DNA of 64,000 nucleotides from Bacillus sp. SJS (GTDB taxonomy: Bacteria > Bacillota > Bacilli > Bacillales > Bacillaceae): positions 62,001 through 126,000 of the forward strand of contig NZ_JAQV02000016.1 of the NCBI RefSeq assembly GCF_000732485.2. Reading direction: 5' to 3'. Position numbers and translations under genes: made by a program. Numbering within the stretch: the first letter of the stretch is position 1; each line of letters starts with the position of its first letter. This document shows, in pieces, positions 56,706 through 58,832 of this stretch. The notes beneath the pieces were generated by a model. That model saw only the letters and a list, made by a program, of their open reading frames with translations. It searched no databases and was not told the DNA's origin.

Positions 56706-56877
56706 CTTGGCTACCTTCCCTATTCAGTTCTTTAGCTGAATTCTTAAAATACATTCCATTCAGCCTGTTTTCTTATAGAGAAAAAAAGGATTATAGTAGT
56801 TATTATACTTTAAAGTTATCAGAATTTGTCGACGATTAAATCTGACTTTCCATTTTCTTTTAATGCAAGTCCATTCA

Positions 56878-56904
56878 CACTACCCAGCCTCCATACATAT
56901 AGTA
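56878..56904 (+). promoter_or_regulatory. Candidate sigma-K promoter
   Basis: CATATAGTA (56896-56904) matches the sigma-K -10 consensus CATAnnnTA, with an AC-containing -35 region (CACAC ending at 56880) about 16 bp upstream. It lies 36 bp before the GTG of the first GerP-like gene. Confidence 0.5.
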
Positions 56905-56939
56905 AGGTAAATTGCAGGAGAGAAACGGAGGATTGGATT

Positions 56940-57182
56940 GTGCCAGTTTCCGTCGTTTTTAATCAGATTAACGTAGTAAGCATGGCGGCAAATTCCATTA
57001 TTTCTTCTGGACAGAATAGCCAGCCTGACTGGAATGCCCAGGGGAAATTTAATTCAGGGAACGGGAATTACGTAAATTCTTGCGCGATAGGGTGTACCAA
57101 CATCATCAATGATCAGGATTTATTCGATATGGCGATCTCGCAGCCGGAAAATATTAACCCGCAGCCTGTATCCCAAATATAG
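56940..57182 (+). CDS. GerP-like small spore protein 1
   Basis: An 80-residue protein starting with GTG after CGGAGG. Hydrophobic beta-rich N-terminus (PVSVVFNQINVVSMAANSII), then Ser/Asn-rich segments SSGQNSQPDWNAQGKFNSGN and IGCTNIINDQDLFDMAISQP. The pattern G-x-N-x-Q-x-D-W and a trailing DQDLFD recur in its neighbours. Such small Asn/Ser/Gly-rich proteins resemble GerPA/GerPF proteins that make spore coats permeable to germinants. Here the GFG block is degenerate (GNGNYV). First of a two-gene unit. Confidence 0.75.
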   Translation: MPVSVVFNQINVVSMAANSIISSGQNSQPDWNAQGKFNSGNGNYVNSCAIGCTNIINDQDLFDMAISQPENINPQPVSQI

Positions 57183-57191
57183 AAGAGAACT

Positions 57192-57443
57192 ATGAAAAAT
57201 TTAACCATTCAGTTTACCAATATAAATGTCTCTGCGCTGTCGACGAACTCTGGTGTTTTTACAGGAACCAATTCCCAATATGATTGGACCGTCAGCATGA
57301 AGAGCAATGCAGGATTCGGGAAGATCATTGGGGAAAATAACGTTTCAATTAACAACGTGAATATTGTGCATGATGACGATGTGATGGATTCCGATTTCAC
57401 TCAGAACCAGGAATCGAATGATCAGCCTGTCTATCAAAGTTAA
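57192..57443 (+). CDS. GerP-like small spore protein 2
   Basis: An 83-residue paralogue of the previous gene, 9 bp downstream. It reads KNLTIQFTNINVSALSTNSG followed by VFTGTNSQYDWTVSMKSNAG, then GFGKIIGENNVSINN and NIVHDDDVMDSDF. It shows the clearest form of the family pattern: N-S-G-V-F-x-G-x-N-x-Q-x-x-W, then GFG-x-I-x-G-x-N-N-x-x, then an acidic end. Confidence 0.78.
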   Translation: MKNLTIQFTNINVSALSTNSGVFTGTNSQYDWTVSMKSNAGFGKIIGENNVSINNVNIVHDDDVMDSDFTQNQESNDQPVYQS

Positions 57444-57482
57444 TCCAAAGGCCATCTTACCCGGATGGTTTTCCTTTGGATT
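57442..57482 (+). terminator. Strong hairpin after GerP-like gene 2
   Basis: AATCCAAAGG (57442-57451) pairs with CCTTTGGATT (57473-57482), with inner CCATC/GATGG pairing. The tail lacks a long T-run, so it may act as a processing or pausing structure rather than a classical terminator. Confidence 0.55.
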
Positions 57483-57568
57483 GAGGTCATACTTTAGCGT
57501 TGCGTCTTATATATATTTAATAAGAAAATCAATGGTCCGTGGACAAGCATGAGAAAGGGGCTCTTTCA

Positions 57569-57787
57569 ATGACAAAGATAGATTTTCAATCAGTGACAGT
57601 CAAGCTGATTCAAAATAGCTCTGGTTTGTTTTATGGAGAGAACCTGCAGTATAAATGGAAAAATAAATCGAGGGTATATGAAGGGTTTGGAAGAGTAAGC
57701 GGAAATTCCAATAAAATATTTAATAATATTACGTTGGATGAAACGCAGGAGAAGAAAGCAGAAGACTCTAATAAGAAACAGAACTAA
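57569..57787 (+). CDS. GerP-like small spore protein 3
   Basis: A 72-residue paralogue: MTKIDFQSVTVKLIQNSSGL, FYGENLQYKWKNKSRVYEGF, GRVSGNSNKIFNNITLDE, ending in a Lys/Glu-rich tail. It keeps all core positions of the family. The ATG at 57569 is chosen because AAGGGG lies 9 nt upstream; an earlier ATG at 57539 has none. CATACTTTA (57488-57496) upstream fits a sigma-K -10 but no -35 was found. Its stop overlaps that of the converging gene by 4 bp. Confidence 0.75.
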   Translation: MTKIDFQSVTVKLIQNSSGLFYGENLQYKWKNKSRVYEGFGRVSGNSNKIFNNITLDETQEKKAEDSNKKQN

Positions 57788-58047
57788 AGGGCCCGTTTTC
57801 CTTTGGTGACTTGCTGATACACTTTTTCTGGTGATTTTTTCAAATGATCGTGAAGGACAAGGTGTGTATTATGAAAGATTTCATTGTCATTGCCAGATAT
57901 GGTGCCGAAGCCGGAATGATGGCTGTCTAGCGATGAAGTCCAATTAATCTGCAGGTTTCTTCCTATGAATATACCTGCATTATCTGCAATTTCATGCACA
58001 TTCAAGTCTTTAAAATTGATTTCAGGGGAATGAAGGTTAATTCTCAT
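57784..58047 (-). CDS. GerP-like small spore protein 4 (opposite strand)
   Basis: An 87-residue paralogue on the minus strand: INLHSPEINFKDLNVHEIAD, NAGIFIGRNLQINWTSSLDS, HHSGFGTISGNDNEIFHNTH and a basic C-terminus VYQQVTKGKRAL. It is preceded by AGGGAGG and by a sigma-K-like -10 element. Being in inverted orientation relative to its sisters, it forms a tail-to-tail pair with gene 3. Confidence 0.75.
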   Translation of the reverse strand: MRINLHSPEINFKDLNVHEIADNAGIFIGRNLQINWTSSLDSHHSGFGTISGNDNEIFHNTHLVLHDHLKKSPEKVYQQVTKGKRAL

Positions 58048-58090
58048 ATTTCCTCCCTCAATACAAAATGTCAGTCCGCCAGGCTCATTT

Positions 58091-58099
58091 TATAATATG
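58091..58099 (-). promoter_or_regulatory. Candidate sigma-K -10 element, minus strand
   Basis: CATATTATA on the minus strand matches CATAnnnTA; GCAC about 17 bp upstream could be the -35 element. It is 44 bp before gene 4 of the GerP-like group. Confidence 0.45.
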
Positions 58100-58137
58100 A
58101 CGCAGCTGGGCGGAACGTGCAAAAGGGATGAAACGGA

Positions 58138-58785
58138 ATGGCATCGGATGAAAAGGCCTGGTTAGAACTTCTTCAGCGGATCGAGAAAAGATTGGAAGCG
58201 ATCGAGAAAACGGTTGAAAAAACTCAGAGCCATGTACATCAAACCTTTCATATTGAACACATTGAGACAATGAACATTCAGGAATTAACCTACCATTTAG
58301 AAAATGTAGATGTGAAGCAGCTGAGCGGGACGATGAATATAGGAAATACGTTTCCTTACTCCGCAAATACTGCCCGGCATGTCAAACCCGAAAATCAGTC
58401 TAAAGAAGAGATATATATTCGAATCAATGGAAAGAACATACCCTATCAAATCGGTAAACCGCAGAAGGAACTTCAGGAAGATGATAGAAAACCGCTTTCT
58501 GCGAACTTCACCATCGGAGACATTCATATTGGAGCCGTAGAGGATGCGTCTGCCGTTAGCTTCGGCAATAACTTTCCGACAGATTTTAAAAGCAGTAAAA
58601 AGCATAATCAGGGATTTGGCAACATCCTTGGCAATGGAAATGATATTCATGATATCCTTTCCCATCAGGAGGAAAGGGATGTTACAGAGGTCTTCAGCGA
58701 CAGTCCGGATCAGCCGCAGCCTGAATGGCTGAAATGGCTGAAGGAGCAAAAGAATGACGGGGAGGAAGAAGGGGAACCGGAATGA
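58138..58785 (+). CDS. GerPC-like protein with a GerP-like C-terminal motif
   Basis: A 215-residue protein. Residues 1-40 form a coiled-coil helix (WLELLQRIEKRLEAIEKTVE); residues 45-75 (MNIQELTYHLENVDVKQLSG followed by TMNIG) resemble GerPC. The C-terminal part (about 130-180) repeats the small-protein pattern: VEDASAVSFGNNFPTDFKSS, then HNQGFGNILGNGNDIHDI. It therefore combines a GerPC-like half with the motif shared by the four small neighbours. The end is acidic with WLKWLKEQKNDGEEEG. Role in spore permeability is inferred. Confidence 0.7.
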   Translation: MASDEKAWLELLQRIEKRLEAIEKTVEKTQSHVHQTFHIEHIETMNIQELTYHLENVDVKQLSGTMNIGNTFPYSANTARHVKPENQSKEEIYIRINGKNIPYQIGKPQKELQEDDRKPLSANFTIGDIHIGAVEDASAVSFGNNFPTDFKSSKKHNQGFGNILGNGNDIHDILSHQEERDVTEVFSDSPDQPQPEWLKWLKEQKNDGEEEGEPE

Positions 58786-58788
58786 AAT

Positions 58789-58832
58789 AAGGAGCTGCTG
58801 CTGAAAAAGATATTTCAGCAGCAGCTCCTTTT
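58789..58832 (+). terminator. Intrinsic terminator, perfect 18-bp stem
   Basis: AAGGAGCTGCTGCTGAAA (58789-58806) pairs fully with 58813-58830 around a 6-nt loop, followed by TTTTG. It ends the GerPC-like gene. Confidence 0.88.

Follow-up and report, generated by a model that had tools for sequence, protein, structure and literature searches.

This study revealed that a cassette of five small genes in Bacillus sp. SJS, located at positions 56940-58785 of a 64,000-nucleotide stretch of contig NZ_JAQV02000016.1 (hereafter the window), encodes remote relatives of the GerP proteins, known in well-studied species for letting nutrients pass the spore coat. On balance, the cluster is probably a second GerP-type coat module with an accessory role, driven by sigma-K and tuning coat permeability alongside GerP. 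The genes are labelled A to E, and EN and EC denote the N-terminal GerPC-like and C-terminal GerPA-like halves of E. GerPA-like proteins are encoded by A (56940..57182, plus strand; 80 amino acids, with a GTG start and a GGAGG ribosome-binding site), B (57192..57443, plus; 83 amino acids), C (57569..57787, plus; 72 amino acids) and D (57784..58047, minus; 87 amino acids). Gene E (58138..58785, plus) encodes 215 amino acids, comprising an N-terminal helix and GerPC-like segment (approximately residues 1-110) and a GerPA-like domain (approximately residues 118-185). An initial annotation of the window had already noted the single gene on the opposite strand, which is D.

Profile comparison had been set beforehand as the refutation test for the proposed relation to GerP, and this relation held. 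In hhalign, the profile of A-D matched GerPA (93.5%, E 2.3e-7, score 40.5), that of EN matched GerPC (96.8%, E 2e-10, score 65.2), and column-shuffled control profiles, which retain composition and conservation, scored at most 15.3. The match of A-D to GerPF was 53%. The closest family proved to be a set of CotP-linked GerPA-like proteins, matched at 98.0% by A-D and at 97.5% by EC, which itself aligned with GerPA and GerPF at about 96%. At the level of sequence, A-D and EN are remote but real GerP relatives, and their homology is well supported. The fifth protein had been described as adding a coiled coil and a GerPC-like segment; E has an N-terminal helix in the AlphaFold model (residues 1-20, predicted local distance difference test score (pLDDT) 70-75) and a weak GerPC match in Pfam at residues 21-96. 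This GerPC-like part consists of the helix plus the VKQLSGTMNIG segment. We had considered B. subtilis ydfR as the GerPC-like gene and dropped it, as the literature places YdfR among the YetF-type membrane proteins.

Two sigma-K-type promoters are a further line of evidence. The pattern AC-N15/17-CATANNNTA, which we take to be the sigma-K consensus, occurs at only two sites on both strands of the 64 kb, one upstream of A and the other upstream of D, with a random expectation of about 3.3 per window and 0.003 per given 130-base upstream stretch. The candidate promoter of A (56877..56904, plus) has AC at 56877/56879 and CATATAGTA at 56896-56904, and that of D (58091..58118, minus) reads AC-N17-CATATTATA. 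Sigma-K promoters have a two-block layout with a gap of 14-16 nucleotides (PMC517825). The CAC box and CATA upstream of A are conserved in all 10 aligned genomes, and close forms of the site upstream of D, some deviating by one base, persist within otherwise diverged sequence in nearly all of the fifteen genomes compared. From one sequence, a sigma-A promoter is possible for A (TTCACA-18-TATAGT), but sigma-K is the better fit to the CAC and CATA columns conserved across genomes. Upstream of C, CATACTTTA at 57488 lacks a -35 element, and C and E show weaker sigma-K-type matches only. Given that conserved sigma-K-type promoters precede A and D, late mother-cell expression of the cassette is predicted.

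Gene E points to a physical arrangement. At 14 loci, mostly in other genera, its halves are encoded by separate tandem genes, EN (106-175 amino acids, GerPC-like) followed by EC (89-131 amino acids, GerPA-like), which lie within 1 nucleotide of each other in six cases. Fusions of the Rosetta-stone type are the usual sign of mutually binding proteins. By its sequence relationships, E is such a fusion of a GerPC-like protein with a GerPA-like domain, and the separate tandem genes therefore imply a physical partnership of the two halves. The clusters with separate halves often have an HSP20/CotP-like gene: one is present at 9 of 15 loci outside the model-building set, at one of 18 gerP loci and at none of 14 five-gene loci, and the window cluster has none. 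Together with the conserved promoters, this linkage in relatives favours a role in the spore coat.

The five genes are also related to one another. A search of the genome with B recovered A at 2e-10, D at 4e-9, C at 5e-8 and the C-terminal portion of E at 4e-4, which identifies A-E as true paralogues by sequence similarity. They are ancient members of the GerPA/GerPF superfamily, and a family profile built partly from the A-E sequences found no further locus close to them in this genome (next match E=0.016). The initial annotation was right about the genes and their paralogy; the motif that it described as shared is real for B-D but not strict, since A has GNGNYV in place of GFG and E has NNFPTDF, without the tryptophan. 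All five have in common only the start methionine, one phenylalanine and the G-x-N and G-x-G positions. The proteins are small and contain Asn and Gly. Purifying selection acts on all five genes and is strongest on A, the best conserved member (76-99% between genera): the ratio of nonsynonymous to synonymous substitution rates (dN/dS) was about 0.003-0.18 where computable, with several saturated dS values, apart from a single, noisy value of 0.30 for E between near-identical strains.

The order and strands A+ B+ C+ D- E+ were found in 16 genomes, including that of the window, from at least three GTDB families. The carriers comprise four genomes of the window's genus (one of which is M. mangrovi), Metabacillus indicus, M. 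niabensis, M. halosaccharovorans, Bacillus sp. J37, Mesobacillus maritimus and others. The flanks, named by eye, vary from nrdF in the window to a hemA / engB-lon region, a metA-like gene, groEL and others elsewhere, so the cassette has moved as one unit, by relocation or acquisition. A tree of 81 sequences, based on few columns and with some long branches, places each of A-E in its own well-supported clade (A 99/99, B 99/98, C 99/94, D 98/97). Since several families have the strand pattern in common and each gene falls in its own clade, the orientation is old and fixed. The set thus has its own long history of duplication, as had been proposed, while the inversion proposed with it is not supported as a local event, the same mixed orientation being fixed across at least three families at unrelated sites. 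The wider family is present in 61 of 299 genomes of the order and in 32 of 117 genera. SpoIVA was detected in 288 of these 299 genomes and was missing from 11; all 61 family-positive genomes have it, which is about the chance expectation. One congener (G001) has lost the cassette by a single deletion equivalent to approximately 56882-58505, with a short TTCAC match at its ends; what remains of E, its 3' tail, lies between nrdF and the kinase (L055 7786-7830). This clean deletion indicates that the cassette is dispensable.

With regard to known systems, the cassette resembles gerPABCDEF in that A-D are remote homologues of GerPA and EN of GerPC, in its small Asn/Gly-containing proteins and, at the sequence level, in the sigma-K-type promoter preceding A and D. 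It differs in comprising five genes on two strands instead of one co-oriented six-gene operon, in the fusion of its GerPC-like and GerPA-like parts in E, in lacking counterparts of GerPB, GerPD and GerPE, and in scoring below every Pfam cut-off. An ordinary gerP operon is present on contig 18 of the genome (L071), which bears out the earlier distinction between the two. The CotP-linked clusters, which we take to be of the YdgA/YdgB type, ydgA presumably lying beside cotP in B. subtilis, provide the closest profile match to A-D and EC and usually have a GerPC-like gene nearby. In contrast to the cassette, which has no HSP20 gene, they usually contain fewer GerPA-like genes, and their GerPC-like and GerPA-like genes are unfused. 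B. subtilis ydgA is reported to be under sigma-K control (PMC9319509). In B. anthracis, two additional GerPF-type genes outside gerP, GerPF2 and GerPF3, overlap GerPF in germination and are similar to the cassette in being GerPA/GerPF-type genes outside the gerP operon, but the cassette itself is unreported there; removal of the coat rescues the gerP mutant of this species (PMC2817736). We found no description of the five-gene cassette in the literature searched, which was mostly without subscription journals.

If the cluster is an accessory GerP-type module, sigma-K would drive its genes late in the mother cell and the A-E proteins would be deposited in the coat. E could then act as a GerPC-like organiser whose N-terminal helix self-assembles and whose tethered GerPA-like domain would join A-D in a mixed oligomer. 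If the analogy with GerP holds, such an assembly, hydrophilic and rich in Asn, would tune the passage through the coat of small molecules, such as nutrients, calcium dipicolinate (Ca-DPA) and amines, and would work beside the ordinary GerP proteins without replacing them. The oligomer, the coat location and the role in permeability are drawn from what is known of GerP (PMC2817736, PMC11841064). A more far-reaching version, which we consider unlikely, is that the fused GerPC-GerPA scaffold organises a second conduit or gate in the coat, chemically distinct and parallel to GerP, by which carriers would admit or exclude different molecules.

Several results weigh against the accessory-module reading. 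In the Pfam scan, none of A-E passes the gathering cut-off, the best score against gerPA/gerPF (PF10676) being 13.7 bits (cut-off 27.3) and that of E residues 21-96 against GerPC (PF10737) being 15.8 bits (E=0.015; cut-off 22.4). The A-D profile found no counterparts in GerPB (13.6%), GerPD (4.8%) or GerPE (6.9%), and EC alone matched GerPA at only 5.7%, joining it only via the CotP-linked set. The AlphaFold models (pLDDT 47 for B and 39 for E) are too poor for fold searches or for showing a shared fold. Finally, the rarity of the cassette and its clean loss from one congener may mean that its effect is small. NCBIfam yielded zero matches for the five proteins, and a sequence search of solved structures with the family profiles yielded none.

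The main rival is that the proteins are late coat building blocks in which the GerP fold is reused for coat assembly, adhesion or resistance; the module would then be structural or protective and play no part in the access of germinants. This is a serious possibility, although we hold it to be the less probable one: sigma-K-type promoters suit any late coat gene, the relatives are linked to HSP20/CotP-like coat genes and the presence of the wider family is patchy, but joint homology to GerPA and GerPC argues against it, as mutants of gerP have a permeability phenotype (PMC2817736). That the adjacent KinB-like kinase has the module as its output or partner is highly improbable. The initial annotation had placed the cluster beside this kinase, and the divergent adjacency is real in the window's genus, although not outside it. 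In G063, a related cluster has a 34% identical kinase at a distance of about 1.4 kb, and the G059 cluster has a similar kinase nearby. Nevertheless, the congener without the cassette keeps an intact kinase with 90% identity, which shows the two to be separable, and the kinase does not adjoin the cassette in M. mangrovi, M. indicus, M. halosaccharovorans and the f44 and f30 genomes. Equally hard to credit is a decaying or selfish duplication, functionless and retained by chance, which the single-deletion loss in one congener would suit but which the low dN/dS of A-E, the near-invariant A and the conservation of promoters and gene order across genera contradict.

The remaining features concern transcript ends and related loci. 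A and B are separated by 9 nucleotides, and the hairpin that follows B (57445..57483, plus; -21.4 kcal/mol, z -5.7), a match in the terminator-like scan, is probably the terminator of an A-B unit. C and D converge, and their stop codons overlap by 4 nucleotides, an overlap retained in several relatives. E is followed by an 18-base-pair hairpin (58789..58830, plus; -32.7 kcal/mol, z -7.1), which is probably its terminator; the terminator scan places the hairpin on the minus strand.

Other GerPA-like genes occur elsewhere in the genome. A second GerP-type locus outside gerP is on contig 26 (L072 7961-9795), where a GerPA-like gene on the minus strand lies with two YdgA/YdgB-like genes on the plus strand and an HSP20/CotP-like gene, and the same locus encodes a 160-amino-acid protein weakly like EN. 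On contig 31 (L073 5232-6026), an HSP20-like gene, CotM-like by eye, adjoins a single GerPA-like gene, so that GerPA-like genes recur beside small heat-shock-type genes. Among other Bacillales, runs of near-identical GerPA-like genes with GerPC-like, HSP20 and LysM-like genes form additional GerP-type loci outside gerP (L093 5726-7418, L094 4363-8066). A SplB-type radical-SAM gene, recognised by eye, is located near the window genome's gerP operon (L071 10239-11063) and near related clusters of G059 and G063 (L065 6812-7633, L066 6641-7462), which may be chance. One split-type cluster contains a gene for a YetF/DUF421-type membrane protein (L118 4823-5521); YetF-type proteins influence both the resistance and the germination of spores (PMC12548441).

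The passage of small molecules across the spore coat is an unsolved problem. The natural fusion of a GerPC-like and a GerPA-like protein predicts contacts between particular GerP-type proteins and may prove easier to work on structurally. Being a second module and dispensable, the cassette offers a natural presence/absence comparison for coat permeability in environmental Metabacillus species. If the conduit reading were true, species with the cassette would admit or exclude different molecules.
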